NCBI GenBank assembly: GCA_037783545.1
Contig: JBBELK010000571.1
Coordinates: forward strand, 62,001-126,000
Length of the DNA: 64,000 nt
Direction of reading: 5' to 3'
Origin: Henricia sp. BOLD:AAB3569
Lineage: Eukaryota; Echinodermata; Asteroidea; Spinulosida; Echinasteridae
Shown here: positions 3,654-61,823 of the stretch, piece by piece
Layout: the number at the start of each line of letters is the position of its first letter
How positions within the stretch are numbered: position 1 is the stretch's first letter
Translations under genes and position numbers: made by a program
The notes under the pieces: model-generated
What the model was told of the DNA's origin: nothing
Database searches by the model: none
Seen by the model: the letters and a program-made list of their open reading frames with translations, nothing else

Positions 3654-4055
3654 TGGACCCAGAAACGAGCTGCAGTGTATCATCATCATCAGTAACATTC
3701 AGAGTAAACGGGATGCTTCAAATTAACATGGAATATGTTAACCAGAGGGTCACAAATTTCAGGCGACTTGAAATACCCACATCTCCAAAGATTTTGAACC
3801 TGTGTACAACATACCATTCAGGTTTTAGAGGGAGTCTTACGTACGTTAATAAAAGGCAAGTGTGTGTAAAACATCCAAGGAATTTCCTTTCGGGTTTTAA
3901 AGGGGAGTCGTACGTTAACAGAAGGGAAGAGTGTGTGGAGGTATTGGGCGGTAGGGGATGGGGAGTCAACTGGTCTCATATCTGGCAGACTTAGAACCCA
4001 TGCCATAGATTTCTCTGTATAAATTAATGTAAATAAATTGAGCTGCATGTTTGTA
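3654..4055 (+). promoter_or_regulatory. NDUFAF2 3' UTR with polyadenylation signal
   Basis: The first well-placed AATAAA after the stop is 4032-4037, followed within 20 bp by a GT-containing stretch (GCATGTTTGTATAAATT). An earlier AATAAA occurs near 3848 and could be an alternative site. The end coordinate is an estimate. Confidence 0.5.
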
Positions 4056-4384: not shown

Positions 4385-4612
4385 ATCACCATTAAAATAA
4401 AATAACCAAACTTGGGATGAGTGAAAAATCGTAACAGCCTTATCGGGATTCGAACCCGAGACCTCAGACTCACCGGGTAGAGGCTCTACTACCAGCTGAG
4501 CTGTGAAACACAGGGGTAAACTCCCTCGGGTTTTCCCTATGAACCCAATTTCTCTCCTGGTGTTGCATGGGAGCGTAATTAGGCAAAGTAATGAACACAA
4601 CATCTGGTATGG
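4385..4612 (-). mobile_element. tRNA-derived SINE (family 1)
   Basis: Inverted copy of the 1689-1890 element, carrying CCTTATCGGGATTCGAACCC (complement of a B box) and the GGGTTTTCCCTATGAACCCA flank. Confidence 0.7.
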
Positions 4613-5344: not shown

Positions 5345-5430
5345 CGTCATAGCGTGCTTGGGTGGGACTTGAACCCACAACCTCCTGCATACTAAGCAGA
5401 CGTCTTGACCACTGAGCTGGCCGGCGTTGA
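5345..5430 (-). mobile_element. tRNA-like SINE head (family 2)
   Basis: GGACTTGAACCCACAACCTC is an inverted B-box/T-arm and CCACTGAGCTGG an inverted A box. The arms are not those of a clean tRNA, and the flank has no terminator-like T-run, so I read it as a SINE or tRNA pseudogene. Confidence 0.5.
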
Positions 5431-36400: not shown

Positions 36401-39400
36401 AAGAATAAATTCGGAAAGCTGGAAAAACTGACAAAAGTGGTGTTCCCATTGGACTTTTTTTGTTAAACTACCATGGTTGCTCAGTAGAATTACAAAACGG
36501 GGATACACAGAGAACTAGCGTCTGAGAGGGGCCGCGGAAAATTTACGCGCAGCCGCGGTAGTTTTACAGAGCTGTATTTTAGTCCAGTGGGAACAGTTAT
36601 CGTCCTGTAAAAATAACATGACCCTGCAGAAAATAAGAATGGGCTTGTACAGGGAAACTTTACAGCGGGGTCGTTATAACTTTCTGCTTGGGCACTGAAA
36701 ACAAATGGCAAATGAGAACGCACGGAAATATTACACCAAGGAAAGTTACTCCAAAGTAGCGGAAAACAAAGTCCAATGGGAACATGCCTATAGACATATA
36801 GAATGTCACGTACGGGGTAGTTGTTTGAACATCCCAAAAAAATGTACGCTTTGCGGTCAGACGCTGTACATGTACGACAAATAATTAAAATGATGCATCC
36901 GTGGTCACAGCACTGCTTCCTGGGGCCAATTTTATGGCGCTGATAAGCAAAAAATTTGCTTAGCACAGAATTTCTTGATAGACTTATTTCGAATTAACTT
37001 CAATCAGAAATATTGTCAAACAAGTGTTCGTATTTTTTATCAGATTTTTACATAGGCCAAACAAAATAAATGGTGCGTTTACGGTAACGGCCTAAAAAAA
37101 TCCAGGTAGGTAGGTAGGAAAATAATTTTATTTTTTCATTTTTTTTACATTTCAGTTCATGCATTTGCATGTTGTTTTGCAATGTTTGAAACTCACTATT
37201 AACCATGTTCATGTACAAGTGCAGAAAATGTTATGTTCATTGGAAATTATTGCAAATAGTGCTCATTTAAAGTTATCAACTTGAAAAATGGCAATAAAAA
37301 GTTACCGTAAACACACCATTTATTTTGTTTGGCCTTATCAGTATTTGTACGTACCAATACTGCATGGGAATTTAAAAACAATAATTAATAAATAAAAAAA
37401 TATGATAAAGCTGCACATACCTTTAATTTTTTGTTGACTTTACAACAGTATCTGTACAGCTGGCCCAGATTCAAGGGCCCAAAGTCTGCATAGAAGCTGA
37501 AAAACAAAGATTGAAATATCGGGTGTTAGATTCACAGCGTAGGCATAAACAGGAAGACACCACTCATTTGAGTGAACTTGCATAATTGAGTTAAACCGAT
37601 CAAAATCCATTCTTTAATTGGTTGATTTTTACATTAAAGGGCCCCTTATTTAGGATTTTTATCAATGAAATCTATGCTTTAAAACCACTCTACTCAGTTA
37701 AAGTCATAAAAATCCTATTTGGAGCTTGCTTTGGGGGTTAAAACAAAGGTTTTTAGTTTTTATGCTAATGCAAATATGCATATTCATGACCAAGGTCACT
37801 ATGTCACAAGAGGCAAACGCAGGAAAATCACATTCAACTGTGCACAAAAGATTCTACTTTTTTCTCAATTTTCCTGAAACTTTTGTAATCCATGGCTGTT
37901 TGAGTTTGTTTTACATGTTGCCTGCTGTAAGCCATGACAAAACAAGTCCAACTTGAAGTCTTATGTTTTTTCTTAACTTTTCCCTTCTGTCTTCCTTATG
38001 TGATGCACTCAAAACAGCGCCCTCTGTCTGTGATTTATTGCAGTGAAATCTTCAAAGTTAAAAAAGGCCACCTTTTATTGATTTTACATCCAAACGAATG
38101 TATGTCTTGCTGAACAAGTAATCCGTCATTATGAAGCAAAGCTTAGGCACAAAGTTGTTTAGAAAAACTTTTTAAAACAGGAACAACAGCATTTAACAGA
38201 AGAATATGTTGATAAACTGCCTTGTAGAAATTTCAGCCACATACCAGTATGTAGAGTAATACCTGTACTTCAGAAAACCTTTATTTTAAAAATGGTTTTG
38301 TGTTGAATGAATGGTAAAGAAAAAATATTCTACAGATTAAGTGCCTTTAGTTGGCAATTTCTCCCACAAAGGTACCATTTTACACGGGGAAATAATCATG
38401 TGGTGTTTGGTATCGTTGCTATATCAACACTTTTAGTCAACACATTTTTGTCAACTTGGGAAGTAAAATTTTGGTACAACGTAATGCACGTATCAGTTGT
38501 ATGACGCACTATACGACCCCCGGAAATGGTGCGTCACTTTACCGAGGTGTGTTACTTTCTCATGTACCATGCCGCACCCCTGTGTCACAAAAGTGACGGA
38601 CCTTTGCCACACAATGACGGTACCCTCAGTCAATTTTGTGACGCACCATTGATTTATTCTGACCATGACTGTCTTAAATGACGCACCCCCATAGTCATAC
38701 ATCATCGTTGACTGAACTGGTGGTAAATGACGCACCCATGACGCACCTCTCCCGGGGGTCGTATAGTGCGTCATACAACTGATATGTGCATAACTACAAA
38801 TGATGTACTGGGGTTTTAATAGTACTAGCTAAGTCATCCTGGCGACAAACGTCTTTTTGCATGTAGCATGCTTATGGCATTTATTCAATTTCAGGAAAAA
38901 TAGCCCTGGTGATCTTTCAGAAATGCTACTTTTGCCATGGAGTCCTTTATTTCATGGTGTCCCTGTAATTTCGAGGCAATCAAGGGCAATTTTTGCAGTG
39001 TTTCCTGCCCCCCTTTTACGGTGAATTTCTAAGCCTAGCGACTAGCGTACATTGTGTACATCGACATTGCAACTGGAAGCAACTCAACTCATCAGTGGCT
39101 GTCGTAGCGCGTTCATCAACAGCAACTGATCAGTTGCGCACTAGCAGCAACTGGGAGCATTCAGCCATGTCTACATTTCCAGAGCGCGCACATCAATACG
39201 GCAATTCGGTAAAGCCTGGAGTACATTTACCTCGCAACTGGAAGCAACTGTTGCTTGCAGTTGCCGTCAATGTACGCACACATGATTAGATGCACGCGAG
39301 CAACTGACACGTAGTACACGTATGACGTATATCGACGCAACTGACCGCAACTGGGTACAACTAGTTGCCAGAAAGTAGAACATGAGCAACTCGCGGCACA

Positions 39401-41191: not shown

Positions 41192-41200
41192 CACTGCAGC
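41192..41200 (+). repeat. Left target-site duplication, 9 bp
   Basis: CACTGCAGC immediately outside the left terminus ACCGGTGTG. The identical 9-mer occurs at 59676-59684 immediately outside the right terminus. Confidence 0.85.
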
Positions 41201-41216
41201 ACCGGTGTGAAGTTGG

Positions 41217-41330
41217 TTACTTATTCGACGTTCGACGTTCAATATTCAATAAGGAGCTGTTACTTATTCGACATTCAAAGGGGAGCTGTTACTTATTCGA
41301 CATTCAATAAGGAGCTGTTACTTATTCGAC
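41217..41330 (+). repeat. 29-bp terminal tandem repeat, left arm
   Basis: About four units of GTTACTTATTCGACATTCAA followed by TAAGGAGCT, the first and third with variants. The mirror array lies at about 59545-59660. Confidence 0.85.
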
Positions 41331-41437
41331 ATTCGATGTGCAGTGTAGTACGATTGTCTACGAAGTCCGTACGCACTGTATATCCGCATCCGCTGGTAGA
41401 CTGGTTCCTTGTCCTCATATTTTCTTCCCCTTCGTCG

Positions 41438-41666
41438 TATTGATCACGTTCACAGACGCCATCTTCGTAGGAAAAAGTGCTACTGCGTATTAAACGCTAT
41501 CAAGTACGCGCACGCACACGCTGTAACATGTTCCAAACATGCGCGCGTGTTGCTCGAAATTTGTTCGAAATACGGCGCAACCGATGCGCGACACAAAAAA
41601 ATACGCTCAAAATCATGATGCACGTGGCAATTTGTAGGAAGTGACGTCATTTGAACGTGATCAATA
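41438..41666. mobile_element. TA-flanked MITE inside the left arm only (family J)
   Basis: Ends TTGATCACGTTC and complement; TA at 41438-41439 and 41665-41666. The right arm lacks it and reads CGTCGTATAGTGG (complement of 59427-59446 region) at the equivalent site. Confidence 0.8.
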
Positions 41667-41681
41667 GTGGAGAACAGCGTA

Positions 41682-41875
41682 TCGCACATGGACAGGGGAC
41701 CAGCCTAATCCGCTATCAGCGCAAAACCATCGATATATAATTATTGGATAAAGTATGCAATACCAGTTGGCAATACGAAAATTGAAGCCATATATGTACT
41801 GCCGGCCGTTAATGTACACCACGAACAATGCTTGGCCTAGACTGCTCCCCGGTCCATGCGATCGCTTGTATTTCG
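41682..41875. mobile_element. Second insertion unique to the left arm
   Basis: The right arm reads TATCGGTGAATTATG continuously, whereas here about 191 bp (starting CACATGGACAGGGGACC) lies between TATCG and GTGAATTATG, with TCG on both sides. A related inverted sequence is at about 61136-61300 (GCGATCGCATGGACCGGGGA). Confidence 0.7.
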
Positions 41876-42069
41876 GTGAATTATGAACACAACAACTCTG
41901 ACAATCGTGGGTGAAATAAAGGATAAAAAGTGATATAATTTGCACTGCAATGGAAGGATAATTTTCAGATATGACTGCATTTGGTTTAGCTGTGGCATTG
42001 ATCTTTGAAACTCGAAGGTAATTCCTTCCTCTCCCCGATCCCCTCCCTCCCCTCTCCCACATAACGGCG

Positions 42070-45000
42070 GGTAATATATACGCCCGATTTCCCCCTGCCA
42101 CACCCCTGGGGCCAGGCAGCCATGGGTGGGGATGTATAGAGGGGAACTTTGGGTACTTGTATCCAGTGGTCGCTACCTGGCCCCGGGGGTTCTAGTAGTG
42201 TAATTCGTTAAGGATATATATCAGGCGTAGGCCCACAGGCAATGTATAAAGGCGGGTAATGTATACGGCCCGATTTCCCCCTGCCCCACCCCCGGGGTCA
42301 GGAAACCATCGGTAGGAATGTATAAAGGGGAACCTTGGGTACTTGTATCAAGTGGTCGTTACCTGGCCCCGGGGGTTGTAGTGGTATATTTCGTTCCATA
42401 TATATATCACGCAAAGACCTATACAGGAAATGCATAACGACGCGTAATGTATACGGCCCGATTTCCCCCTGCCCCACCCCCGGGGCCAGGCAGCCATGGG
42501 AGGGGATGTATAGAGGGGAACCTTGGGTAATTGTATCCAGTGGTCGCTACCTGGCCCCGGGGGTTCTAGTAGTGTAATTCGTTCCGGATATATATTATAA
42601 TATCAGGCGTAGGCCCACAGGCAATAAAGGCGGGTAATGTATACGGCCCGATTTCCCCCTGCCCCACCCCCGGGATCAGGCAGCCATGGGTGGGGATGTA
42701 TAGAGGGGAACCTTGGGTACTTGTATCCAGTGGTCGCTACCTGGCCCCGGGGGTTCTAGTAGTGTAATTCGTTCCGGATATATATTATAATATCACGCGT
42801 ATAGGCCCATAGGCAATGCATAACGGCGGGTAATGTATACGGCCCGATTTCCCCCTGCCCCACCCCCAGGGCCAGGCAGTCATGGGTAGGGATGTATAAA
42901 GGGGAACCTTGGGTACTTGTATCTAGTGGTCGCTACCTGGCCCCGGGGGTTCTAGTAGTGTAATTCGTTCCGGATATATATTATAATATCACGCGTATAG
43001 GCCCATATATAAACAATGCATAACGGCGGGTAATATATACGGCCAGATTTCCCCCTGCCCCACCCCCGGGGTCAGGCAGCCATGGGTGGGGATGTATAGA
43101 GGGGAACCTTGGGTACTTGTATCCAGTAGTCGCTACCTGGCCCCGGGGGTTCTAGTAGTGTAATTCGTTCCGGACATATATTATAATATCACGCGTATAG
43201 GCCCATAGGCAATGCATAACGGCGGGTAATATATACGGCCCGATTTCCCCCTGCCCCACCCCCGGGATCAGGCAGCCATGGGTAAGGATGTATAGAGGGG
43301 AACCTTGGGTACTTGTATCCAGTGGTCGCTACCTGGCCCCGGGGGTTGTAGTGGTATATTTCGTTCCATATATATATCACGCAAAGACCTATATAGGAAA
43401 TGCATAACGACGCGTAATGTATACGGCCCGATTTCCCCCTGCCCCACCCCCGGGATCAGGCAGCCATGGGTAAGGATGTATAGAGGGGAACCTTGGGTAC
43501 TTGTATCCAGTGGTCGCTACCTGGCCCCGGGGGTTCTAGTAGTGTAATTCGTTCCGGATATATATTATAATATCACGCCAAGGCCCATAGGCAATGCATA
43601 ACGGCGGGTAATATATACGGCCCGATTTCCCCCTGCCCCACCCCCGGGATCAGGCAGCCATGGGTAAGGATGTATAGAGGGCAACCTTGGGTACTTGTAT
43701 CCAGTGGTCGCTACCTGGCCCCGGGGGTTCTAGTAGTGTAATTCGTTCCGGATATATATTATAATATCACGCGTATAGGCCCATAGGCAATGCATAACGG
43801 CGGGTAATATATACGGCCCGATTTCCCCCTGCCCCACCCCCGGGATCAGGCAGCCATGGGTAAGAATGTATAGAGGGGAACCTTGGGTACTTGTATCCAG
43901 TGGTCGCTACCTGGCCCCGGGGGTTCTAGTAGTGTAATTCGTTCCGGATATATATTATAATATCACGCGTATAGGCCCATAGGCAATGCATAACGGCGGG
44001 TAATACGGCCCGATTTCCCCCTGCCCCACCCGCGGGGTCAGGCAGCCATGGGTGGGGATGTATAGAGAGGAACTTTGGGTACTTGTATCCAGTGGTCGCT
44101 ACCTGGCCCCGGGGGTTCTAGTAGTGTAATTCGTTCCGGACATATATTATAATATCACGCGTATAGGCCCATAGGCAATGCATAACGGCGGGTAATATAT
44201 ACGGCCCGATTTCCCCCTGCCCCACCCCCGGGATCAGGCAGCCATGGGTAAGGATGTATAGAGGGGAACCTTGGGTACTTGTATCCAGTGGTCGCTACCT
44301 GGCCCCGGGGGTTGTAGTGGTATATTTCGTTCCATATATATATCACGCAAAGACCTATATAGGAAATGCATAACGACGCGTAATGTATACGGCCCGATTT
44401 CCCCCTGCCCCACCCCCGGGATCAGGCAGCCATGGGTAAGGATGTATAGAGGGGAACCTTGGGTACTTGTATCCAGTGGTCGCTACCTGGCCCCGGGGGT
44501 TCTAGTAGTGTAATTCGTTCCGGATATATATTATAATATCACGCCAAGGCCCATAGGCAATGCATAACGGCGGGTAATATATACGGCCCGATTTCCCCCT
44601 GCCCCACCCCTGGGATCAGGCAGCCATGGGTAAGGATGTATAGAGGGAAACCTTGGGTACTTGTATCCAGTGGTCGCTACCTGGCCCCGGGGGTTCTAGT
44701 AGTGTAATTCGTTCCGGATATATATTATAATATCACGCGTATAGGCCCATATATAAACAATGCATAACGGCGGGTAATATATACGGCCAGATTTCCCCCT
44801 GCCCCACCCACGGGGTCAGGCAGCCATGGGTGGGGATGTATAGAGGGGAACCTTGGGTACTTGTATCCAGTGGTCGCTACCTGGCCCCGGGGGTTCTAGT
44901 AGTGTAATTCGTTCCGGATATATATTATAATATCACGCCAAGGCCCATAGGCAATGCATAACGGCGGGTAATATATACGGCCCGATTTCCCCCTGCCCCA

Positions 45001-48000
45001 CCCCCGGGATCAGGCAGCCATGGGTAAGGATGTATAGAGGGCAACCTTGGGTACTTGTATCCAGTGGTCGCTACCTGGCCCCGGGGGTTCTAGTAGTGTA
45101 ATTCGTTCCGGATATATATTATAATATCACGCGTATAGGCCCATAGGCAATGCATAACGGCGGGTAATACGGCCCGATTTCCCCCTGCCCCACCCGCGGG
45201 GTCAGGCAGCCATGGGTGGGGATGTATAGAGAGGAACTTTGGGTACTTGTATCCAGTGGTCGCTACCTGGCCCCGGGGGTTCTAGTAGTGTAATTCGTTC
45301 CGGACATATATTATAATATCACGCGTATAGGCCCATAGGCAATGCATAACGGCGGGTAATATATACGGCCCGATTTCCCCCTGCCCCACCCCCGGGATCA
45401 GGCAGCCATGGGTAAGGATGTATAGAGGGGAACCTTGGGTACTTGTATCCAGTGGTCGCTACCTGGCCCCGGGGGTTGTAGTGGTATATTTCGTTCCATA
45501 TATATATCACGCAAAGACCTATATAGGAAATGCATAACGACGCGTAATGTATACGGCCCGATTTCCCCCTGCCCCACCCCCGGGATCAGGCAGCCATGGG
45601 TAAGGATGTATAGAGGGGAACCTTGGGTACTTGTATCCAGTGGTCGCTACCTGGCCCCGGGGGTTCTAGTAGTGTAATTCGTTCCGGATATATATTATAA
45701 TATCACGCCAAGGCCCATAGGCAATGCATAACGGCGGGTAATATATACGGCCCGATTTCCCCCTGCCCCACCCCTGGGATCAGGCAGCCATGGGTAAGGA
45801 TGTATAGAGGGAAACCTTGGGTACTTGTATCCAGTGGTCGCTACCTGGCCCCGGGGGTTCTAGTAGTGTAATTCGTTCCGGATATATATTATAATATCAC
45901 GCGTATAGGCCCATATATAAACAATGCATAACGGCGGGTAATATATACGGCCAGATTTCCCCCTGCCCCACCCACGGGGTCAGGCAGCCATGGGTGGGGA
46001 TGTATAGAGGGGAACCTTGGGTACTTGTATCCAGTGGTCGCTACCTGGCCCCGGGGGTTCTAGTAGTGTAATTCGTTCCGGATATATATTATAATATCAC
46101 GCCAAGGCCCATAGGCAATGCATAACGGCGGGTAATATATACGGCCCGATTTCCCCCTGCCCCACCCCCGGGATCAGGCAGCCATGGGTAAGGATGTATA
46201 GAGGGCAACCTTGGGTACTTGTATCCAGTGGTCGCTACCTGGCCCCGGGGGTTCTAGTAGTGTAATTCGTTCCGGATATATATTATAATATCACGCGTAT
46301 AGGCCCATAGGCAATGCATAACGGCGGGTAATGTATACGGCCCGATTTCCCCCTGCCCCACCCCCGGGATCAGGCAGCCATGGGTAAGGATGTATAGAGG
46401 GGAACCTTGGGTACTTGTATCCAGTGGTCGCTACCTGGCCCCGGGGGTTCTAGTAGTGTAATTCGTTCCGGATATATATTATAATATCACGCGTATAGGC
46501 CCATAGGCAATGCATAACGGCGGGTAATGTATACGGCCCGATTTCCCCCTGCCCCACCCCCGGGGCCAGGCAGCCATGGGTGGGGATGTAAAGAGGGAAC
46601 CTTGGGTAATTGTATCAAGTGGTCGCTACCTGGCCCCGGGGGTTCTAGTAGTGTAATTCGTTCCGGATATATATTATAATATCACGCGTATAGGCCCATA
46701 GGCAATGCATAACGGCGGGTAATATATACGGCCCGATTTCCCCCTGCCCCACCCCTGGGATCAGGCAGCCATGGGTAAGGATGTATAGAGGGGAACCTTG
46801 GGTACTTGTATCCAGTGGTCGCTACCTGGCCCCGGGGGTTCTAGTAGTGTAATTCGTTCCGGATATATATTATAATATCACGCGTATAGGCCCATATATA
46901 AACAATGCATAACGGCGGGTAATATATACGGCCAGATTTCCCCCTGCCCCACCCCCGGGGTCAGGCAGCCATGGGTGGGGATGTATAGAGGGGAACCTTG
47001 GGTACTTGTATCCAGTGGTCGCTACCTGGCCCCAGGGGTTCTAGTAGTGTAATTCGTTCCGGACATATATTATAATATCACGCGTATAGGCCCATAGGCA
47101 ATGCATAACGGCGGGTAATATATACGGCCCGATTTCCCCCTGCCCCACCCCCGGGATCAGACAGCCATGGGTAAGGATGTATAGAGGGGAACCTTGGGTA
47201 CTTGTATCCAGTGGTCGCTACCTGGCCCCGGGGGTTCTAGTAGTGTAATTCGTTCCGGACATATATTATAATATCACGCGTATAGGCCCATAGGCAATGC
47301 ATAACGGCGGGTAATATATACGGCCCGATTTCCCCCTGCCCCACCCCCGGGATCAGGCAGCCATGGGTAAGGATGTATAGAGGGGAACCTTGGGTACTTG
47401 TATCCAGTGGTCGCTACCTGGCCCCGGGGGTTATAGTGTAATTCGTTCCGGATATATATTATAATATCACGCGTATAGGCCCATAGGCAATGCATAACGG
47501 CGGGTAATGTATACGGCCCGATTTCCCCCTGCCCCACCCCCGGGGTCAGGCAGCCATGGGTGGGGATGTTTAAAGGGGAACCTTGGGTACTTGTATCCAT
47601 TGGTCGCTACCTGGCCCCGGGGGTTCTAGTAGTGTAATTCGTTCCGGATATATATTATAATATCACGCGTATAGGCCCATGGGCAATGCATAACGGTGGG
47701 TAATATATACGGCCCGATTTCCCCCTGCCCCACCCCCGGGGTCAGGCAGCCATGGGTGGGGATGTATAGAGAGGAACTTTGGGTACTTGTATCCAGTGGT
47801 CGCTACCTGGCCCCGGGGGTTCTGGTAGTGTAATTCGTTCCGGATATATATTATAATATCACGCGTATAGGCCCATAGGCAATGCATAACGGCGGGTAAT
47901 GTATACGGCCCGGTTTCCCCTGCCCCACCCCCGGGATCAGGCAGCCATGGGTGGGGATGTATAGAGGGGAACCTTGGGTACTTGTATCCAGTGGTCGCTA

Positions 48001-49325
48001 CCTGGCCCCGGGGGTTCTAGTAGTGTAATTCGTTCCGGATATATATTATAATATCACGCGTATAGGCCCATAGGCAATGCATAACGGCGGGTAATGTATA
48101 TGGCCCGATTTCCCTATGCCCCACCCCCTGGGTCAGGCAGCCATGGGTGGGGATGTATAGAGGGGAACTTTGGGTACTTGTATCCAGTGGTCGCTACCTG
48201 GCCCCGGGGGTTCTAGTAGTGTAATTCGTTCCGGATATATATTATAATATCACGCTTATAGGCCCATAGGCAATGCATAACGGCGGGTAATGTATACGGC
48301 CCGATTTCCCCCTGCCCCACCCCCTGGGCCAGGCAGCCATGGGTGGGGATGTATAGAGGGGAACCTTGGGTACTTACATCCAGTGGTCGCTACCTGGCCC
48401 CGGGGGTTCTAGTAGTATATTTCGTTCCGAATATATATCACGCATAGGCCTATATATACATAATGCATAACGGCTGGTAATATATACGGCTCGTTTTCCC
48501 CCTGCCCCACCCCCGGGGCCAGGCAGCCACGGGTAGGAATGTATAGAGGGGAACCTTGGGTACTTGTATCCAGTGCTCGCTACCTGGCCCCGGGGTTATA
48601 GTGGTATATTTCGTTCCGAATAAATATCACGCATAGGCCTATATATACATAATCATGCATAACGGCGGGTAATATATACGGCTCGATTTCCCCCTGCCCC
48701 ACCCCTGGGGCCAGGTAGCCATGGGTAGGGATGTATTAAGGGGAACCTTGGGTACTTACATCCAGTGGTCGCTACCTGGCCCCGGGGGTTATAGTGGTAT
48801 ATTTCGTTCCGGATATATATTATAATATCACGCATAGGCATATGAAGGCAATGCATAGCCTAACGGCGGGTAATATATACGGCCCGATTTCCCCCTGCCC
48901 CACCCCCAGTGGCCAGGTAGCAATTGGTAGGGATGTATAAAGGGTAACATTGGGTACTTGTATCCAGTGGTCGCTACCTGGCCCCGGGGGTTATAGTGGT
49001 ATATTTCGTTCCGAATATATATATCACGCATAGGCCTATATATACATAATAATCCATAACGGCGGGTAATATATACGGCTCGATTTACCCCTGCCCCACC
49101 CCCGGGGCCAGGTAGCCATGGGTGGGGATGTTTTAAGGTTAACCTTGGGTACTTACATCCAGTTGTCGCTACCTGACCCGGGGGGTTATAGTGGTATATT
49201 TCGTTCCGAATATATATCACGCATATGCATATAAAGGCACTGTGCATAACGGCGGGTAATATATACGGCTCGATTTCCCCCTGCCCCACCCCCGGGGCCA
49301 GGTAGCCATGGGTAGGGATGTATTA
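42070..49325 (+). repeat. ~195-bp satellite array, left arm (about 38 monomers)
   Basis: Monomers recur every 188-200 bp. Anchor words are CGATTTCCCCCTGCCCCACC, GGGTACTTGTATCCAGTGGT and CTACCTGGCCCCGGGGGTT. Each monomer holds CCCCCGGGGCCAGG(C/T)AGC and, about 55 nt later, its complement GCTACCTGGCCCCGGGGG. Higher-order structure is visible: a 5-monomer block 43189-44154 (966 bp) and 6-monomer blocks 44155-45318 (1164 bp) and 45319 to about 46480. Reading frames in it are repeat artefacts. Inner copies (48400-49325) are more diverged. Confidence 0.97.
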
Positions 49326-50048
49326 AAGGGCCCCTTATTTAGGATTTTTATCAATGAAATATATGCTTTAAAACCACTCTACTCATGCAGTTAAAGTCAT
49401 AAAAATCCTATTTGGAGCTTGCGTTGGGGGTTAAAACAAAGGTTTTTAGTTTTTCTGCTAATGAAAATATGCATATTCATGACCAAGGTCACGATGTCAC
49501 AAGAGGCAAACACAGGAAAATCACACTTAACTGTGCACAAACGATTTCTCAATTTTCCTGAAACTTGTGTAATCCATGGCTGTTTAAGTTTGTTTTACAA
49601 TCAGAGGTTGGGGGTTCAAGCCCCACTTCGACCAACGTGTCTGTGTCCCTGGGCAAGGCACTTAATCCCAGTTGCCTCGTCAACCCAAGCGATATATGGG
49701 AAGCTGTTAAGGGGAATGCTACAATCTAACTGCTGATAGGGTTGTGCGCCTGACCAGCAGCCACCTAGTTGAAGCGAAATGGTTCTGGTGATTCCCTGAT
49801 GGCAGCGGTAATAATGGTAACAGCGCCTTGAACACCCTGCAGGTTGGATATGTGCGCTATACAAATCTAATCATTATTATTATTATTATTATTATTATGT
49901 TGCCTGCTGTAAGCCATGACAAAACTGGGGGTAGAAACTGCAGCAATTTGCCACAAGTCCAACTTGAAGTCTTATGTTTTTTCTTAACTTTTCCCTTCTG
50001 TCTTCTTTATGTGATGCACTCAAAACAGCGCCCTCTGTCTGTGATTTA
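49323..50048 (+). repeat. Family S element inserted at the inner edge of the left satellite array
   Basis: Starts TTAAAGGGCCCCTTATTTAG within a satellite monomer (GGGATGTATTAAAGGG). Degenerate satellite resumes after 50050 (GGTTGTAGCAGTTTAATTCG). Carries the SINE at 49600-49897. Confidence 0.75.
49600..49897 (+). mobile_element. SINE (family 5) inserted in the family S element
   Basis: Absent from the copy at 37635-38036, where TTTTACATGTTGCCTG is continuous. The head has GGGGGTTCAAGCCCCACTTC (B-box-like) and the tail is ATT repeats at 49871-49897. Related to 35430-35725. Confidence 0.8.
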
Positions 50049-50049
50049 T

Positions 50050-50160
50050 GGGGGTTTGTCGGGGGGAGAGGGTGGGGCTGGTGGGTTAGGCCGTGGTTGT
50101 AGCAGTTTAATTCGTTTCAAATATATATCATGCACGCCGCACTTGTAGGCCTATTAGGTG
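50050..50160 (+). repeat. Degenerate innermost satellite monomer
   Basis: TTGTAGCAGTTTAATTCGTT, then CAAATATATATCATGCACGC, resembles the 3' half of a monomer (TTGTAGTGGTATATTTCGTT, then CATATATATATCACGC). Marks the end of the left arm. Confidence 0.6.
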
Positions 50161-50179
50161 AGCGGCAAACCCGCAAAAA

Positions 50180-50960
50180 GACGCTTATTTGATGAGTTTA
50201 ATGTCCCCACACTACACAAAGCAACACCATACATCATTTAATTGGGCAGCCTAATATCCCAACCTCAAAGTTAGCATGATGTAGAGCTTAAAAGTTGGGG
50301 TAGGGTGATTTTTGGGCTATTTTTGTAAAACAAAAACCATTTTTGGTCAAAAATATGATTTCCAGATATCGATATTATCCACACATATCAGGCCTTATCC
50401 AAGAATCCAAGTTCTAGGTCGATGTGATTCTCTAGTAAACCAAAATGACATTTTGAAAAGTCTAAAATGTATACAGTAAGTAGAGTAGACGTTGGTATGA
50501 ATTTTCGATTTTCTCAAAACCATATTAATTTTATAAAGTAAAAAATAAATATAGGTCAAATTTTCTTTTTGTTGGGAACAAAATGCCCACACACGCCCAC
50601 ATCTCACATCATTAGATAGCTTAAAGTCTTAGCTTTAACGTTCAGCTTGACTATTTTTCAAAAGTGGCACAAGGGTAAATGTTTGGCTTTTTTTGTTAAA
50701 ACCCTGATTTTTGGTCAAATTACATTTTTAAGATATTCACAACATAAGGTCAATTTGATGCTCAGTAAAACCAAAATGAGCACATAAAATTTAAAAAATG
50801 TACAGCCTAAATATAGGAAACTTAAATGTAAATTTGCGTTTTTCTCAAAACTATATTTCTTACGTAAAAATAAAGGTAAAATTGTGACTTTCCCCAAACA
50901 AATAGACCAACATATATACTTATATCATACATTATTTTACAAATAAAAATTTTTTTTCTG
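50180..50960 (+). repeat. Diverged ~330-bp tandem units in the element loop
   Basis: Two tandem units share a CACATCATTAGATAGCTTAAAGTC-like start, a TTTTTGGTCAAA word, AGTAAACCAAAATGA/AGTAAAACCAAAATGA and TTTCTCAAAAC. A third, more distant unit lies at 54210-54400 (CACATCATGCATCATTGGAC). AT-rich; no credible coding region. Confidence 0.55.
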
Positions 50961-51049
50961 TTGTGTTTACTGGATCGTACCATTAAACATTATGGGGGGT
51001 TGTGGATTGGCGCGCCAAAATTTATCCAGTACAGTCAGGTACAGCTTCA

Positions 51050-52210
51050 GACATCCTTTCAGAAATCGCGAAAAGTTCATTTTCGAAAACCGCACTTTTG
51101 CTTGATTTTTATCCACTCAAAACGGATAAGTTGAAATAAACAGCGGTGTAAGTCGGCTGATATGTCGACTATCGAAAAAGGTGCAAATGCAATTTAGTGA
51201 TACAGCATCCTTGACAATAATTTTTAGATGGTCGTTGTGAAAAAAGGATCGTCAAAATGTCCCGTAATTAACCACAAAAGCCTTAACAGCTAGAATCCCC
51301 CCTTCCACATTTTTTTTTTCCTGTTAGGTGTATGTGTCTACAACATCATCACAACTTGTTTTTCACAAAAAATTGACAGACTTTTGCTTAAAACGTAAAG
51401 CAGTTCCGACCCTCTTCACCCAAATTCTGAAACGCTCGAGGTCACTCGGCTTGTTTATCAACAGGGTGTTGACGTCATCCTGAGAAACATACAAAACGGT
51501 CTGTGCAGTATTGAATGGAAAATACACGAAGTGAATGTTTATCATGCCTATTTTGTCCTTGTAATTCAAAATACAAACGTGAAAAACACTTCATGTAATA
51601 TGACAGCAATCTACTATTACCTGTTTTGTGAAAAAACGATGAAATTGTGGCTCACAGTGACTCTCTTTTGAAGTAAATACTGGTGCATTGCGACGGGTGG
51701 TTTTGTCACGGAACCAATGGCATTCACAGCGGTCTGTGTACGGTCCACTGCGGCGTAGTTTCCACGTGTTTGGACATCGGCCGTACAAGTTATAGAATGA
51801 GCGACTCATTTTTCTCTCTCTTGGTAATAGAAAAGAAAATCTTTCTGCTCTTTTTTTTCATAGTGTCTGGTAAAACATGCAACCACGCAGCTACTGGGCA
51901 TATCTCTGGCTTTTTGGAACAACAAAATTCTTCAAAAAACACCATCTAAAAGAGACGGTTTTCTAAGTTTTTTGCGTGTAAACGTATGGAGCTAACTATT
52001 GTGTTGACTTCTCTTTCTCAGGATTGCGTCACGGGGTCACGCGCATATCATGAATACCTATTGAGCGTTTCAGAAATCTCATTTTCGAAAAGCGCACTTT
52101 TGCTTGCAATTTATCCACTTAAAACCGACAATTAAAAAATAATAAAAATCCACGTCGGCAAGAGGGATGTTTGGACTATCGAAAAAAGCCTAAATGCTGG
52201 ATTTTCGTCA
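51050..52210 (+). repeat. Loop direct repeats containing CATTTTCGAAAANCGCACTTT
   Basis: 51060-51180 and 52070-52190 share CATTTTCGAAAA-CGCACTTTTGCTTG, TTTATCCACT and GACTATCGAAAAA. No recognised product in the intervening sequence. Small - strand frames at 51363-51569 and 51591-51809 have no family I know. Confidence 0.55.
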
Positions 52211-53880
52211 AGGGGGATTCTTCCTCTTTAACATTAATAAAAACGATCAATAGTCGAGTTATACGCTTTACCAGCCGTTCACTATCGCGCGAGACTCACG
52301 ACTTTGTTGGAAACAATTTCCTCTTCACTTGCCAGCTTTTTGCTTTGGATATCTCTCAATTTCTGCTGAAGATTTAACTGGACAACCTGGACGACCGAAT
52401 GGGTTTTTCCGTTTTCCGTAGAGGAGCTGACATTCATGGTTTGTCTTCACGAACGTACATAGTTCCACGGTACTGTACCAGTTTTTGGCGGGCAACGTAC
52501 GTGTGTGTACTGTGGGGCTAAATGTCACATTGTCCGGTAGACTGTCCACGGTGGAACTCGCTTTGGTTCTTTAGACTTTTTGTTAAAATTTTATGTTCGA
52601 TTTCGAAAAAAATCACAGCTGAATTTGATGCAGTACTGCAGTAATACCTTCAGTAATAAACTGTGTATCACACGGCCATACGGCTGGAAATAAAACTAAC
52701 TCCATAAGGACACGGGATTTCTCGGAACCGATCAATCACGTGACCTCGATTTTTAAAAAAATGCTTAAAACGGCCAAATTTTGTGGCTTCTTTTCAGGTT
52801 CTCTTCAATCTATTTCGGAAAGACTTTCAGAATCATGTATGGGTCTATTTCGAGCTAAAAATAGTCTAAGAAAGCCGGTTTTTCCCTTTAATATCTGGAA
52901 AATCATAATTTTGACCAAAAACGCGTCTTTTTACAATAAAATAAAAACCGTAAAAAACACATTAAAACAACTAATTATAACCTCCACACAATGCCTATTG
53001 TGAAAGTAGACATCACGCGTGCAAATAATGTTTTAAATTGGACCCAAAACTTAAAAGATAACTTAACAAATAGTAATACATATAATTAATAATTAAAATG
53101 TACACCATATATCGTACATTTGTAATATTTGACGATAAAAGACAATAGAAAGTAAATTGATGACGTCACAAATGCCGTTTTGCGAGCATGAGCATCCGGG
53201 ACCTTTACGTCAAAGGTAATTTTAGACGCTAGCTGTCAATGGTCAACCTTTTTAAAACCTTTTTTTCCGACGAAAGTGTGTAACCAATAAATAAAAGTTT
53301 TTGTATCACAAGAAAGCTAATGATCAACATATTCAGCCGCTAGGTCCAAATCAACCTGGTCACAATTAAACGAGTGAGGGATTGTGAAAGTCGGCGGTGT
53401 GCACAAAAACTCGCCGTTTTGCCAACTTCCCCACGCAAAAAACGACGACATTGTGCAGGTTTATAAGTTTTATTTCCGACGAAACCGAGGAACGTACTGC
53501 TATTATTTGTATGTTTTAGGCTTGAGGAATAGTTATTCAAATGAATTCCGGGCGGCCATGCTTGAAATTAACGTACTTTTTTTTATAATATCACTTTTTC
53601 GTACAAAAATAACAATTTTCCCTATGTCGGAGTGAGCGGATGAGACAACGTTTCCATATGAGGTATTAATGATATCCGCGTGACCCCGTGACGCAATCCT
53701 TAGAAAGACGAGTAAACACTGTCGGCAGTTACATTTACACGCAAAAACTCAGAAAACCGTCTCTGTTGGATGGTGTTTTTTGAAGATTTGTTCTCGTGCA
53801 AAAAGCCAGAGATGTGCCCAGTAGTTGTATGCTTTACCAGACACCATGAAAAAACAAGTTTTGATGGTGTTAATTTTTGT
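51825..53880. repeat. Inner inverted repeat in the element loop
   Basis: 51825-52060 and 53650-53880 are complementary with divergence: AACACCATCTAAAAGAGACGG pairs with CCGTCTCTGTTGGATGGTGTT, and GATTGCGTCACGGGGTCACG with CGTGACCCCGTGACGCAATC. The enclosed 1.6 kb (52060-53650) shows only short frames, none recognised. Confidence 0.75.
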
Positions 53881-54589
53881 AGACACATGATAAACAGGAA
53901 AACTTAAAAATGGACGGGGGATACTGGCTGTTCAAATAGACGGGTGTACGTATTTTAATGGGAAGAAGTACGCTACCTTCAAAAAATTTTAACAAAGGGT
54001 TTTCAACGGGTTCTAGTCCTACTGAATGCAGTGAATAATAGGAAAAAAGTCTACAAAAATCAAGCCACCGAAAATTGGTGAAATCTCGGTCAATTCCAAG
54101 ATGGCCGTCGTGACTTTAAAATTCGCTGAAATGGCTGTAACTTCTTTAATATTTGGAGTCGAGCAGTGATTTAAATGTCTACGCTATGGTTTTCAGGGCC
54201 AAGGAATTCAATGAAATCTATAAAATTTCAATCCAACCTTCGGCAAACAGACCCACATCATGCATCATTGGACAGCTTAATATCTCAGTTTCGGACTATT
54301 TTTGTCACAAGCCATCACCTTTTTGTCAAAAATGTAAAAATTCCGATGACATTATGAACATCCACAAAACAAGAGCTACACGTATAGGATACAGGCATTA
54401 GCAGGGGTTGAGACAATAATTTCTCTAACCTAACTGCTGAGTCAGAAGTATATTCTTTTATTAGTCAGTAATTTGCATAACATGATCCCCTCCTATGTCA
54501 AGGCTGGTTGCATCAGCCACCGTATACGAGCGGCTATAAGGGAATGCGCCACTCTGCTAGAATTGCCTCTCTGACAACCTGCAGAGAAG

Positions 54590-55712
54590 TTTTTGAGACG
54601 CGCAAGTCAGGAGGTTAGCTGATCCCACGCAGGTTTAATCAGGATAAGAAACTCAACAAACTTGTCCATTTCAGCCTAGCGTAAGGACATCACAGCCCAG
54701 CCTGAAGCCATACCAACCTAGCCCGTGGCCAACCCTGCCCGAAGACATCCTAGTCCAGCCCGAAGCCCTCTCAGTCCAGCTCAAAGCCCCCAGTCCACTT
54801 TAAAGCCCTCCCAGCCCAGCCCAAATCACCCAATAGCCAAGCCCGAAGCCACGCCACGCCAGCCCAGCCCGAAGCCCACCTAGCCCAAAGCCCTCCCAGC
54901 CCAAAGCCCCTCCCAGCTCAGCTTGAAGTCCCAAAGCCCAACCCAAAGCCTTCCCATCGCAGCCTGAAGCACACCCAGTGCAGTCGAAGCCTTCTAAGCC
55001 CCGTCTGAATGTCTCCTAGTCCTAGACTAGCCTAAAGAACTAGCCTAAAGCCCTCCCAGCCCAAAGCCCTCCCAGCCCAAAGCCCTCCCAGCCCAAAGCC
55101 CTCCCAGCCCAAAGCCCTCCCAGCCCAAAGCCCTCCCAGCCCAGCTTGAAGCCCGAAGCCCTGCCCAAAGCCTTCCAAGGGCAGCCTGAAGCCTTTTAAT
55201 TGCAGCCCAAAGCCCAACCAGCCCGGCCCGAAGCCTTTACGGCCCAGCCCGAAGCCCTCCCAGCCCAGCTTGAGGCCCGAAGCTTGAAGCCCGAAGCCCA
55301 GCCCAAAGCCTTCCTAGTGCATGAACGATATAAGCCCTTCCAGCCCGGCCCGAAGTCACCCCAGCCAAGCCAGAAACCTTCCTGATCCAGCCCGAAGCCA
55401 TTCCATCTCATCCCATCCCGGCCTAGCCCACCCCAACCCCAGCCGCAGTCCATGCCATCCCTAAGCCAGCCCAGCCCATTATGAAGCGACCCCTGCCATG
55501 CCCCTAACTTAACCCGGTCCTACCCGCCCCAATAGAGGACAACAAGGCATTGATCGACAACTACTCTAGAAACGCTTTCGAAACGCTCCAGCTATACCTT
55601 ATATTTTTGTTATACTTCTGAAGGCTCCAAGAAAATAAGTTTGTTGGGTTTTGTCTTGATTAAGCCTCATGCATGGGATGAGCTGACCCCAGTGAATCGC
55701 GCGTCTCAAAAA
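54590..55712. repeat. Proline/alanine-like CCCAGCCCRAAGCC minisatellite flanked by inverted repeats
   Basis: 54590-54667 and 55636-55712 are complementary (TTTTTGAGACGCGCAAGTCA versus complement of CGCGCGTCTCAAAAA, and CAACAAACTT). Between them, about 54690-55510 is a degenerate minisatellite of AGCCC(T)CCCAGCCCAA units. At 55045-55140 a 16-bp unit, GCCCTCCCAGCCCAAA, is repeated about six times. Apparent Gly/Leu/Trp or Gln/Pro/Ala proteins here are compositional. Confidence 0.8.
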
Positions 55713-55719
55713 CAGCCCT

Positions 55720-58700
55720 ATGGGTGCGGCAGGGGGAAATCGAGTCTTATATATTACGCGTCGTTATGCATTGCCTATAATTTATAGGCCTATGCGTGAT
55801 ATATATCTGGAACGAACTATACTAATAGAACCCCCGGGGCCGGGTAGCGACCACTGGATACAAGTACCCAAGGTTCCCCTCTATACATCCTTACCCATGG
55901 CTGCCTGATCTCGGGGGTGGGGCAGGGGGAAATCGGGCCGTATATATTACCCGCCGTTATGCATTGCCTATGGGCCTAGGCGTGATATTATAATATATAT
56001 CCGGAACGAATTACACTACTAGAACCCCCGGGGCCAGGTAGCGACCACTGGATACAAGAAGTACCCAGGGTTCCCCTTTATACATCCCTACCCATGACTG
56101 CCTGGCCCTGGGGTGGGGCAGGGGGAAATCGGGCCGTATACATTACCCGCCGTTATGCATTGCCTATGGGCCTATATACGCGTGATATTATAATATATAT
56201 CCGGAACGAATTACACTACTAGAACCCCCGGGGCCAGGTAGCGACCACTGGATACAAGTACCCAAGGTTCCCCTTTATACATCCCTACCCATGACTGCCT
56301 GATCCCGGGGGTGGGGCAGGGGGAAATCGGGCCGTATACATTACCCGCCTTTATTGCCTGTGGGCCTACGCCTGATATTATAATATATATCCGGAACGAA
56401 TTACACTACTAGAACCCCCGGGGCCAGGTAGCGACCACTGGATACAATTACCCAAGGTTCTATACATCCCCTCCCATGGCTGCCTGGCCCCGGGGGTGGG
56501 GCAGGGGGAAATCGGGCCGTATACATTACGCGTCGTTATGCATTTCCTATATAGGTCTTTGCGTGATATATATATGGAACGAAATATACCACTACAACCC
56601 CCGGGGCCAGGTAACGACCACTTGATACAAGTACCCAAGGTTCCCCTTTATACATTCCTACCGATGGTTTCCTGACCCCGGGGGTGGGGCAGGGGGAAAT
56701 CGGGCCGTATACATTACCCGCCTTTATACATTGCCTGTGGGCCTACGCCTGATATATATCCTTAACGAATTACACTACTAGAACCCCCGGGGCCAGGTAG
56801 CGACCACTGGATACAAGTACCCAAGGTTCCCCTCTATACATCCTTACCCATGGCTGCCTGATCCCGGGGGTGGGGCAGGGGGAAATCGGGCCGTATATAT
56901 TACCCGCTGTTATGCATTGCCTATGGGCCTATACGCGTGATATTATAATATATGTCCGGAACGAATTACACTACTAGAACCCCCGGGGCCAGGTAGCGAC
57001 CACTGGATACAAGTACCCAAGGTTCCCCTCTATACATCCCCACCCATGGCTGCCTGACCCCGGGGGTGGGGCAGGGGGAAATCGGGCCGTATATATTACC
57101 CGCCGTTATGCATTGTTTATATATGGGCCTATACGCGTGATATTATAATATATATCCGGAACGAATTACACTACTAGAACCCCAGGGGCCAGGTAGCGAC
57201 CACTGGATACAAGTACCCAAGGTTCCCCTCTATACATCCTTACCCATGGCTGCCTGATCCCGGGGGTGGGGCAGGGGGAAATCGGGCCGTATATATTACC
57301 CGCCGTTATGCATTGCCTATGGGCCTATACGCGTGATATTATAATATATATCCGGAACGAATTACACTACTAGAACCCCCGGGGCCAGATAGCGACCACT
57401 GGATACAAGTACCCAAGGTTCCCCTCTATACATCCTTACCCATGGCTGCCTGATCCCGGGGGTGGGGCAGGGGGAAATCGGGCCGTATATATTACCCGCC
57501 GTTATGCATTGCCTATGGGCCTATACGCGTGATATTATAATATATATCCGGAACGAATTACACTACTAGAACCCCCGGGGCCAGGTAGCGACCACTGGAT
57601 ACAAGTACCCAAGGTTCCCCTCTATACATCCCCACCCATGGCTGCCTGATCCCGGGGGTGGGGCAGGGGGAAATCGGGCCGTATATATTACCCGCCGTTA
57701 TGCATTGTTTATATATGGGCCTATACGCGTGATATTATAATATATATCCGGAACGAATTACACTACTAGAACCCCACTGGATACAAGTACCCAAGGTTCC
57801 CCTCTATACATCCTTACCCATGGCTGCCTGATCCCGGGGGTGGGGCAGGGGGAAATCGGGCCGTATATATTACCCGCCGTTATGCATTGCCTATGGGCCT
57901 TGGCGTGATATTATAATATATATCCGGAACGAATTACACTACTAGAACCCCCGGGGCCAGGTAGCGACCACTGGATACAAGTACCCAAGGTTCCCCTCTA
58001 TACATCCTTACCCATGGCTGCCTGATCCCGGGGGTGGGGCAGGGGGAAATCGGGCCGTATATATTACCCGCTGTTATGCATTGCCTATGGGCCTATACGC
58101 GTGATATTATAATATATGTCCGGAACGAATTACACTACTAGAACCCCCGGGGCCAGGTAGCGACCACTGGATACAAGTACCCAAGGTTCCCCTCTATACA
58201 TCCCCACCCATGGCTGCCTGACCCCGGGGGTGGGGCAGGGGGAAATCGGGCCGTATATATTACCCGCCGTTATGCATTGTTTATATATGGGCCTATACGC
58301 GTGATATTATAATATATATCCGGAACGAATTACACTACTAGAACCCCCGGGGCCAGGTAGCGACCACTGGATACAAGAAGTACCCAGGGTTCCCCTTTAT
58401 ACATCCCTACCCATGACTGCCTGGCCCTGGGGTGGGGCAGGGGGAAATCGGGCCGTATACATTACCCGCCGTTATGCATTGCCTATGGGCCTATATACGC
58501 GTGATATTATAATATATATCCGGAACGAATTACACTACTAGAACCCCCGGGGCCAGGTAGCGACCACTGGATACAAGTACCCAAGGTTCCCCTTTATACA
58601 TCCCTACCCATGACTGCCTGATCCCGGGGGTGGGGCAGGGGGAAATCGGGCCGTATACATTACCCGCCTTTATTGCCTGTGGGCCTACGCCTGATATTAT

Positions 58701-59222
58701 AATATATATCCGGAACGAATTACACTACTAGAACCCCCGGGGCCAGGTAGCGACCACTGGATACAATTACCCAAGGTTCTATACATCCCCTCCCATGGCT
58801 GCCTGGCCCCGGGGGTGGGGCAGGGGGAAATCGGGCCGTATACATTACGCGTCGTTATGCATTTCCTATATAGGTCTTTGCGTGATATATATATGGAACG
58901 AAATATACCACTACAACCCCCGGGGCCAGGTAACGACCACTTGATACAAGTACCCAAGGTTCCCCTTTATACATTCCTACCGATGGTTTCCTGACCCCGG
59001 GGGTGGGGCAGGGGGAAATCGGGCCGTATACATTACCCGCCTTTATACATTGCCTGTGGGCCTACGCCTGATATATATCCTTAACGAATTACACTACTAG
59101 AACCCCCGGGGCCAGGTAGCGACCACTGGATACAAGTACCCAAGGTTCCCCTCTATACATCCCCACCCATGGCTGCCTGGCCCCAGGGGTGTGGCAGGGG
59201 GAAATCGGGCGTATATATTACC
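55720..59222 (-). repeat. ~195-bp satellite array, right arm (about 19 monomers)
   Basis: Same monomer as the left arm in the opposite orientation. The segment around 56378-56638 is duplicated at 58697-58957, an offset of 2319 bp (about 12 monomers), so this arm also has block duplications. Outermost monomers match outermost monomers of the left arm in order. Confidence 0.97.
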
Positions 59223-59675
59223 CGCCGTTATGTGGGAGAGGGGAGGGAGGGGATCGGGGAGAGGAAGGAATTACCTTCGAGTTTCAAAGATCAATGCCAC
59301 AGCTAAACCAAATGCAGTCATATCTGAAAATTATCCTTCCATTGCAGTGCAAATTATATCACTTTTTATCCTTTATTTCACCCACGATTGTCAGAGTTGT
59401 TGTGTTCATAATTCACCGATACGCTGTTCTCCACTATACGACGAAGGGGAAGAAAATATGAGGACAAGGAACCAGTCTACCAGCGGATGCGGATATACAG
59501 TGCGTACGGACTTCGTAGACAATCGTACTACACTGCACATCGAATGTCGAATAAGTAACAGCTCCTTATTGAATGTCGAATAAGTAACAGCTCCTTATTG
59601 AATGTCGAATAAGTAACAGCTCCTTATTGAATATTGAACGTCGAACGTCGAATAAGTAACCAACTTCACACCGGT
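59223..59675 (-). repeat. Right terminal unique segment and 29-bp repeats of the giant element
   Basis: Complement of the left arm between 41201 and about 42070 minus its two insertions. In the outer part (59447-59675) I see essentially one clustered difference within the 29-bp repeats and none elsewhere. Confidence 0.85.
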
Positions 59676-59684
59676 CACTGCAGC
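59676..59684 (+). repeat. Right target-site duplication, 9 bp
   Basis: CACTGCAGC directly after the right terminus CACACCGGT; identical to 41192-41200. Confidence 0.85.
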
Positions 59685-60613: not shown

Positions 60614-61823
60614 TTATCTAGACGGGAAACGGGAAAATATTACAATAAGGACAATAATGACTTGCAATGGTTTCCTCATACATGTACCTACATGTACTCT
60701 CATAGCGCGCGATACACTATCCTGCCGCCTTATTTTGTGATGGTTGTAACAGAAAAAAAATCAACAGAAAATGTTCCCCTCGTGACTTCTGTCCAAAACG
60801 AATGGAGAAACGCGTTGACATGCAAGTACTAGCGTGAACCGTTTTTAAAAAAGTTGCCCAAGTCTGACTTCCCGCGTACAGCGCGCCCTCTGGACTAGTG
60901 GCATGTCTAATCTGTTTTCTTCCGTCTCGGAAAGTCTTTTCGAACTTCGCTCGTTCCCAGCGCCCAAACTGGGCGCTGGTACCATCGATAAATATACACT
61001 GGATTAACAACGACGTCTAAAATTGAAGCCACCGTCGCGTCCGCCATTGTACCCCACAAAATACAATGCCTTGCCTAGACTGGTCATGCTGTCTTCACTA
61101 GTCTACATTATGGTCTACATGTATTAAGTGAAATGCAAGCGATCGCATGGACCGGGGAGCAGTCTAGGCTAAGCAATGTTCGTGGGGTACAATGGCGGCC
61201 GGCGCATGGCTTCAATTCTCGTATAGCCAACTGCTATTGCATACTTCATCCAGTGTCTATATATCGATGACTGGTACAGGCTAATTTGTTTGCGCCCCCA
61301 TTGGCCAAAATTGTATACGACACGTGTCCTGCAGACAAGGTACGTATTGTACATAGTACACTTTATTCGTAAAATTGATTTTTGCACTTGATATATAAGT
61401 GTTAATATACTATTTATCAATTTTTGGTCCAGTAGTAAGCAACCCACAATGCTCCGCGCGTCTGTACATGTGACCTTTGCGTCACGGGTTTCCGTCACAG
61501 AAATCTGTGAAGGCACGTCAGCCCGTACTCTGTACCAGCGCCCAGTATGGGCGGTGAGAATGAGCGAAATTTCGAACCTGCCCCACCAGAGAATAATGAC
61601 GCAGGAGGGCGGGCTATCGGGAATTCAGACATCGGCAACCCTGTGAAATATTAATTGTTCGATAACTAAACGATGGTGGATTTTTTTTGTTGATGTCTTA
61701 TTCGAAATATATAGGGGCGCCTATAGGCTATCAATTCCAATTGTTTTCCCCGAGATGCCACTTCCAAAACGCAAAGACAATACATCTTTAACCAATCATT
61801 TTGTCGACACAAACTGCATGCTA

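Follow-up and report, generated by a model that had tools for sequence, protein, structure and literature searches.

The 18.5-kb stretch described here is most likely a non-autonomous TIR DNA transposon of the foldback type (FB/Tetris-like), bounded by a 9-bp target-site duplication and observed at one locus, a reading to which we assign a probability of about 0.86. It lies within the window, i.e., the whole 64-kb stretch of DNA that was analysed. At this single locus were found matching inverted tips, inverted arms of tandem repeats that differ in length (37.4 vs 18.2 units) and a 9-bp duplication, for which the corresponding figure in Tetris is 8-10 bp. A foldback transposon had been proposed in an earlier note on this DNA, and the proposal is borne out by the inverted tips, the subterminal repeats, the tandem-repeat inverted arms, the 9-bp direct repeat, the dissimilar flanks and the failure to recognise a transposase in the 46 of 64 ORFs scanned. 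The interval given at that time, 41192-59684, places the junctions correctly and overstates the extent, as it includes both copies of the 9-mer; the element proper spans 41201-59675, or 18,475 bp (Table 1).

Table 1. Features of the element and its junctions (positions in the window).
Feature	Position	Strand	Remarks
Target-site duplication, left copy, CACTGCAGC	41192..41200	+	9 bp; longest direct repeat adjoining both tips
Left terminal tip, ACCGGTGTGAAGTTGGTTAC	41201..41220	+	Exact
Left flanking domain	41201..42059	+	443 bp alignable with the right domain; two nested inserts in addition
Left subterminal repeats, GTTACTTATTCGAC	41216..41330	+	Starts 41216, 41259, 41288, 41317
Nested 225-bp insert	41439..41663		Ends inverted over 12 bp or more (TTGATCACGTTC); lacking in right arm
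Nested 191-bp insert	41682..41872		Absent from right arm
Left satellite array	42060..49323	+	37.4 copies of the ~196-bp unit; a block recurs at 1164 bp (six units)
Middle domain	49324..55721		~6.4 kb; dispersed repeat at left edge, minisatellite region near right end
Right satellite array	55722..59232	-	18.2 units of the left array's satellite, inverted
Right flanking domain	59233..59675	-	443 bp, without inserts
Right subterminal repeats, GTTACTTATTCGAC	59546..59660	-	Starts 59546, 59575, 59604, 59647
Right terminal tip	59656..59675	-	Exact inverted copy of left tip
Target-site duplication, right copy, CACTGCAGC	59676..59684	+	9 bp; longest direct repeat adjoining both tips

Termini and target-site duplication

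The ends had been described as inverted copies of each other, and the 20-bp tips are indeed perfect inverted copies; with up to three mismatches allowed, the tip was matched twice in the whole 64-kb window, against no match in 100 shuffles. Directly outward of each tip, and in direct orientation as had also been claimed, stands the 9-mer CACTGCAGC. This 9-mer is not rare by itself, since shuffled windows hold a mean of 0.41 such 9-mers, and a third copy occurs at 3669-3677 on the opposite strand; it is its position that counts. When junction offsets from -4 to +4 were considered on each side, the longest direct repeat was the 9 bp at offset 0/0. Chance equality of 9-mer pairs outside the element is about 1.3e-5, and 32 of 2,000,000 sampled position pairs consisted of matching 9-mers. 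A search of the window for an empty-site copy gave no match across the junction.

The duplication includes the palindrome CTGCAG, which lies beside ACCGGT at both ends, and by opening a gap aligners can continue the inverted repeat across it. Given this palindrome, part of the CACTGCAGC match could stem from inverted homology, which leaves a small doubt. Carried to its full extent, such a reading would dispense with transposon insertion altogether: the satellite would have undergone an inverted duplication, and the 9-mer would be a part of the resulting gapped inverted repeat, the spacer being C at one end and TG at the opposite one. We consider this very improbable. Inverted similarity past the 9-mers (score 16, equalled in 56 of 500 shuffles) is not above that of shuffles, and BLAST of the satellite unit against the window returned only two matches outside the arrays, both weak, namely 37 bp at 81% in the middle domain (50095-50131) and 16 bp at 17241-17256. 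A target-site duplication is preferred because the alternative would require the remaining three bases of the 9-mer to agree by chance and, in addition, an indel exactly there.

The tip was also sought in other sequence collections. Neither the tip nor one satellite stretch had an exact match in the viral collection. The tip 20-mer had one exact match in the prokaryote collection, in a Woeseia MAG; this match ends after 23 bp and was taken as chance because about 0.5 such matches are expected in 257 billion bases and two strands.

Flanking domains and subterminal repeats

Each end carries four exact copies of GTTACTTATTCGAC, a sequence with no other copy in the window. These copies fall within a 29-bp tandem array and are candidate transposase-binding sites. 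They are accompanied at both ends by flanking domains that differ, left from right, by three adjacent substitutions across 443 aligned bp. The two nested inserts of the left arm total 416 bp, and part of the smaller one (41728-41872) is related at 83.4% to a sequence at 61132-61269.

Satellite arms

The arms, put by the earlier note at 8 kb and 4 kb of a ~195-bp satellite, measure 8,123 bp on the left (416 bp of it nested inserts) and 3,954 bp on the right, with a unit of ~196 bp. Within the left array, G+C in 2-kb windows is 0.53. No common inner TIR domain was seen between the arms, because the inner edges of the arrays stop at different points of the unit. Each unit contains an inverted repeat matching at 17 of 19 bp, which is suggestive only, as an equal or higher score was obtained in 5 of 200 mononucleotide shuffles. 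For Tetris, the flanking domain has been proposed as the source of the satellite; the idea found no support here: the best stretch shared by the two scored 19, a value equalled in 78 of 200 shuffles and thus not significant.

The right arm cannot be described simply as a truncated version of the left; the flanking domain together with about the first six units is colinear between the two. In register, units 1-6 are 97.0-99.5% identical (10 substitutions and four gap events over 1150 aligned bp), and identity then falls to 87.2% at unit 7. When gaps are allowed (29 openings), the outermost 3.7 kb of the two arms can still be aligned at 93.7%; the other registers listed reach 89-91%. Two right-arm units have equally good second partners on the left, R04 fitting L23 as well as L04 (97.5%) and R06 fitting L26 as well as L06 (98.5%), so that it is chiefly units 1, 2, 3 and 5, together with the flanking domain next to them, that fix the register.

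Recent block duplications were found in both arms by an ungapped offset scan. In the right arm, 55980-56843 and 58299-59162 are identical over 864 bp, without a mismatch, at a distance of 2319 bp; in the left arm, 43777-45168 and 44941-46332 show two mismatches in 1392 bp at a distance of 1164 bp. This latter distance occurs in both arms, as 450 bp of the right arm also repeats at 1164 bp with one mismatch. Units R14-R16 are identical to R02-R04 and carry the same differences from L02-L04 (four substitutions and two gap events), from which the 864-bp duplication of the right arm appears, on sequence comparison, to have arisen after the arms diverged. The correspondence is looser beyond the exact block, with seven substitutions and six gap events between R01-R05 and R13-R17. 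The inferred order of events could be mimicked by gene conversion within or between the arms, which with one copy of the element is inseparable from recent origin.

In a tree of 55 of the 57 units (all but the partial units L38 and R19), the two arms are mixed, with 12 changes of arm label, at least seven of which are forced by starred branches. The label is nevertheless somewhat clustered, 12 changes comparing with a shuffled mean of 15.2 and about 20 of 500 shuffles being as low. The innermost left units, L33-L37, form a separate group with support 91/96, not starred. Satellite variants common to both arms imply either that an array of several unit types predates the separation of the arms, or that the arms exchange units.

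Long inverted satellites are difficult to assemble, the exact 864-bp repeat could itself be an assembly error, and the array copy number in the assembly may be wrong. It could thus be supposed that two unlinked satellite arrays were fused into a false palindrome. That the whole structure is such an artefact is nonetheless very unlikely in our judgement, as the two arms have arrays of different length, do not share the nested inserts and order their units differently, and as their tips meet matched 9-mers on both sides, whereas an assembly error is not expected to make a target-site duplication.

Middle domain and coding content

The middle domain holds a dispersed repeat (49324-50049) that starts at the array edge and is also found, itself interrupted, at 37635-38038, and a minisatellite region at about 54.7-55.3 kb. 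Transposase genes were sought among the 64 stop-to-stop ORFs that overlap 49000-56000 and encode 50 aa or more. Pfam was run on 46 of these (E up to 1 or up to 0.1), the remaining 18 lying wholly or partly in the satellite arrays (8) or in the minisatellite region (10). No Pfam family reached its cut-off in the 46 ORFs, which had only sub-cut-off matches, the lowest E being 0.023, to a DUF; two ORFs of the outer arms likewise had no match in the Pfam scan. A gene with short exons could escape this ORF scan. The observation that no transposase is visible thus holds for the 46 of 64 ORFs scanned, and since none was recognised, the element, if mobile, would probably have to be moved in trans.

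Elsewhere in the window, a frame at 26235-26570 (-) matches CDC14A in PDB (E 5e-40), and another at 25476-25757 (-) matches the dual-specificity phosphatase family below cut-off (E 7e-7), matches that point to a eukaryotic and probably animal host.

Comparison with known elements

Inverted arms made of short tandem repeats, with units of tens of bp or less, are known from FB of Drosophila melanogaster and TU of sea urchin. Both resemble the present element in their tandem-repeat inverted arms and differ from it in unit size.

Among known elements, Tetris of Drosophila virilis comes closest, and the present element is a much longer-armed member of that kind. According to the accessible text of its description, Tetris is a foldback element with an outer flanking domain, tandem repeats of ~220 bp and TIRs of up to 1,735 bp, a non-coding middle in which no transposase was found, and duplications of 8-10 bp (Dias et al. 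2014, PMC4079207). Its repeats also build longer satellite arrays, and fibre hybridisation placed long arrays between two flanking domains (PMC4079207). The two elements thus share, as far as that text goes, a flanking domain followed by tandem repeats, the lack of a recognised transposase and a duplication in the 8-10-bp range. In contrast to the TIRs of Tetris reported there, none above 1,735 bp, the arms here extend over 8.1 and 4.0 kb, or 37.4 and 18.2 units. The present unit measures ~196 bp and is rich in G+C, whereas that of Tetris is described as ~220 bp and ~70% A+T, a base composition that argues against homology of the two. Moreover, the same text gives Tetris 37 bp common to flanking domain and unit as well as an inner TIR domain; no such common stretch was found here, and no such domain was seen. 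The arms had been called exceptional in advance: this is justified for their length relative to the TIRs of Tetris, and not for their kind, Tetris itself having ~220-bp tandem repeats inside its TIRs.

Two further families deserve comparison on the basis of the portions of their descriptions that are accessible. First, Tm1 of root-knot nematodes, a Mutator/foldback family, has composite TIRs in which the number of tandem repeats differs between ends, duplications of 8-10 bp, most often 9 bp (45 of 53 complete elements), and non-autonomous copies (PMC3169594). It is like the present element in the unequal number of repeats at its two ends and in the 9-bp duplication, and unlike it in its 13-15-bp repeats, its size (examples of 1,080 and 2,593 bp), its asymmetric 7-bp end motifs and its known transposase-bearing copy (PMC3169594). 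Second, Galileo of Drosophila, in the P superfamily, has long foldback-like TIRs, which in one subfamily contain ~210-bp tandem repeats varying separately at each end; additional transposase-binding sites are carried by tandem repeats (PMC3573991, PMC3688188). Foldback form and arm repeats that vary separately at the two ends are thus shared with Galileo as described there, which differs in having 7-bp duplications, TIRs of up to ~1.26 kb and a known P-superfamily transposase with a THAP domain.

In the portions of further literature that could be consulted, a 2025 review counts Tetris as one of the satellites that arose when short arrays within transposons expanded; in a review of giant eukaryotic transposons the word foldback appears once, on another subject; and a 2026 survey of D. 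virilis transposons names Tetris in its reference list only. The titles and abstract openings consulted, the full texts of subscription papers being mostly outside reach, contained no foldback element with arms this long, and we do not claim that none is in print.

Superfamily assignment

The resemblance to Mutator that had been suggested is sustained by the duplication, whose length agrees with the ~9 bp of Mutator elements (MULEs), a weak indication as other superfamilies come close; in other respects it is drawn by analogy, no transposase having been recognised in the 46 of 64 ORFs. Target-site duplications of about this length are also made by Merlin and hAT elements. Galileo, with its tandem repeats inside foldback-like TIRs, belongs to the P superfamily, so that foldback form does not fix the superfamily. 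A foldback element of a non-Mutator superfamily with duplications about this long (P/Galileo-like, Merlin or hAT) is consequently a serious contender, if short of probable. Set against it are, in the accessible text of the respective papers, the 7-bp flanking sequences of Galileo (PMC3573991, PMC3688188) and the 9 bp that is the commonest length in Tm1 (PMC3169594). Mutator membership is plausible, judged from duplication length and by analogy.

Proposed history of the element

By analogy with Galileo, a transposase supplied in trans would bind the tips and the subterminal repeats; the element would have been cut out elsewhere and joined here with a 9-bp stagger, and the duplication would be the record of this staggered insertion. 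To judge from the sequence of the two arms, the ancestral arm was probably ~1.6 kb long and consisted of the flanking domain and about six satellite units. Following arm divergence, each arm would have grown separately as multi-unit blocks were duplicated in tandem, either by unequal exchange or by slippage during replication. Other repeats would meanwhile have entered the middle and the left flanking domain. The large satellite was probably produced as a side effect of expansion and is probably not required for movement.

It could be argued instead that the whole 18.5-kb element, with its long satellite arms already present, transposed here as one unit. The duplication does adjoin the outer tips of both arms, and the satellite variants common to both arms, with their seven or more forced label changes on the unit tree, would also be in keeping with this. 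Nevertheless, recent block duplications are seen in both arms, that of the right arm appearing later than arm divergence, and in-register identity falls after six units; together these suggest that much of the length is a later addition, unless the arms diverged before insertion. Transposition as one unit is therefore possible but doubtful, and the block duplications are more consistent with the later addition of at least part of the length than with movement of the whole 18.5 kb. The claim of an 18.5-kb transposon is upheld as regards the element itself, and movement of all 18.5 kb at once need not follow. More broadly, an 18.5-kb element that moved as a unit would make satellite arrays of higher-order structure into mobile arms that a trans-acting transposase spreads; this notion strikes us as rather unlikely.

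Significance

With growth of the arms after their divergence as the favoured reading, the element represents an unusually large, sequence-resolved case of a known path leading from transposon ends to satellite DNA. Mirror symmetry persists in its flanking domains and in roughly the first six units, whereas the deeper units have undergone separate recent block duplications. Such a path was inferred for Tetris, in the accessible text, from assembled arrays and hybridisation (PMC4079207); here the order of events, with arm divergence apparently followed by block growth, is legible in a single insertion. Comparison of alleles could tell arrays that grow after landing from arrays that travel ready-made.

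Insert and repeats within the element

One difference between the two inverted arms of the proposed foldback-type transposon is a nested insert of the left arm, which is bordered by TA on both sides, whereas the right arm lacks it and carries TATA at the corresponding site. Thus, no net duplication accompanies the insert, and the difference could reflect either an insertion into the left arm without duplication or a former insert of the right arm whose excision spared both TA copies.

The consensus of the satellite unit tandemly repeated in both arrays (42060-49323 and 55722-59232) contains an internal inverted repeat, in which ACCCCCGGGGTCAGGCAGC pairs with a nearly complementary stretch at 17 of 19 bp; when the unit was shuffled 200 times, 5 of the shuffled versions scored as high. 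In the middle domain between the arrays, one copy of a dispersed ~400-bp repeat starts directly where the left array ends (49324), and this copy is broken by another repeat, related to 35436-35701.

Features mapped within and outside the element
Feature	Position	Strand	Description
tRNA-like sequence	1780-1852	+	
tRNA-like sequence	5354-5418	-	
Putative CDC14-like phosphatase exons, two frames	25476-26570	-	
Tandem array	32217-32368		18-bp unit; 8.4 copies; 100% matches
Nested insert	41439-41663		225 bp; left arm; ends inverted over ≥12 bp (TTGATCACGTTC)
Dispersed repeat, two copies	49324-50049; 37635-38038		~400 bp
Inverted repeat pair	51853-52059; 53661-53854		~200 bp; 81% identity; middle domain
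Minisatellite region	54729-55297		AGCCCAAAGCCCTCCC-type units; middle domain, close to right array

Sequences outside the element

The stretch containing the forward-strand tRNA-like sequence recurs at 4405-4599, and this tRNA-like sequence may therefore be a tRNA-derived dispersed repeat. Judging from sequence matches, the two reverse-strand frames resemble CDC14-like phosphatase exons: CDC14A is the top PDB match of the first (26235-26570), and the second (25476-25757) matches the dual-specificity phosphatase family, below the family cut-off.
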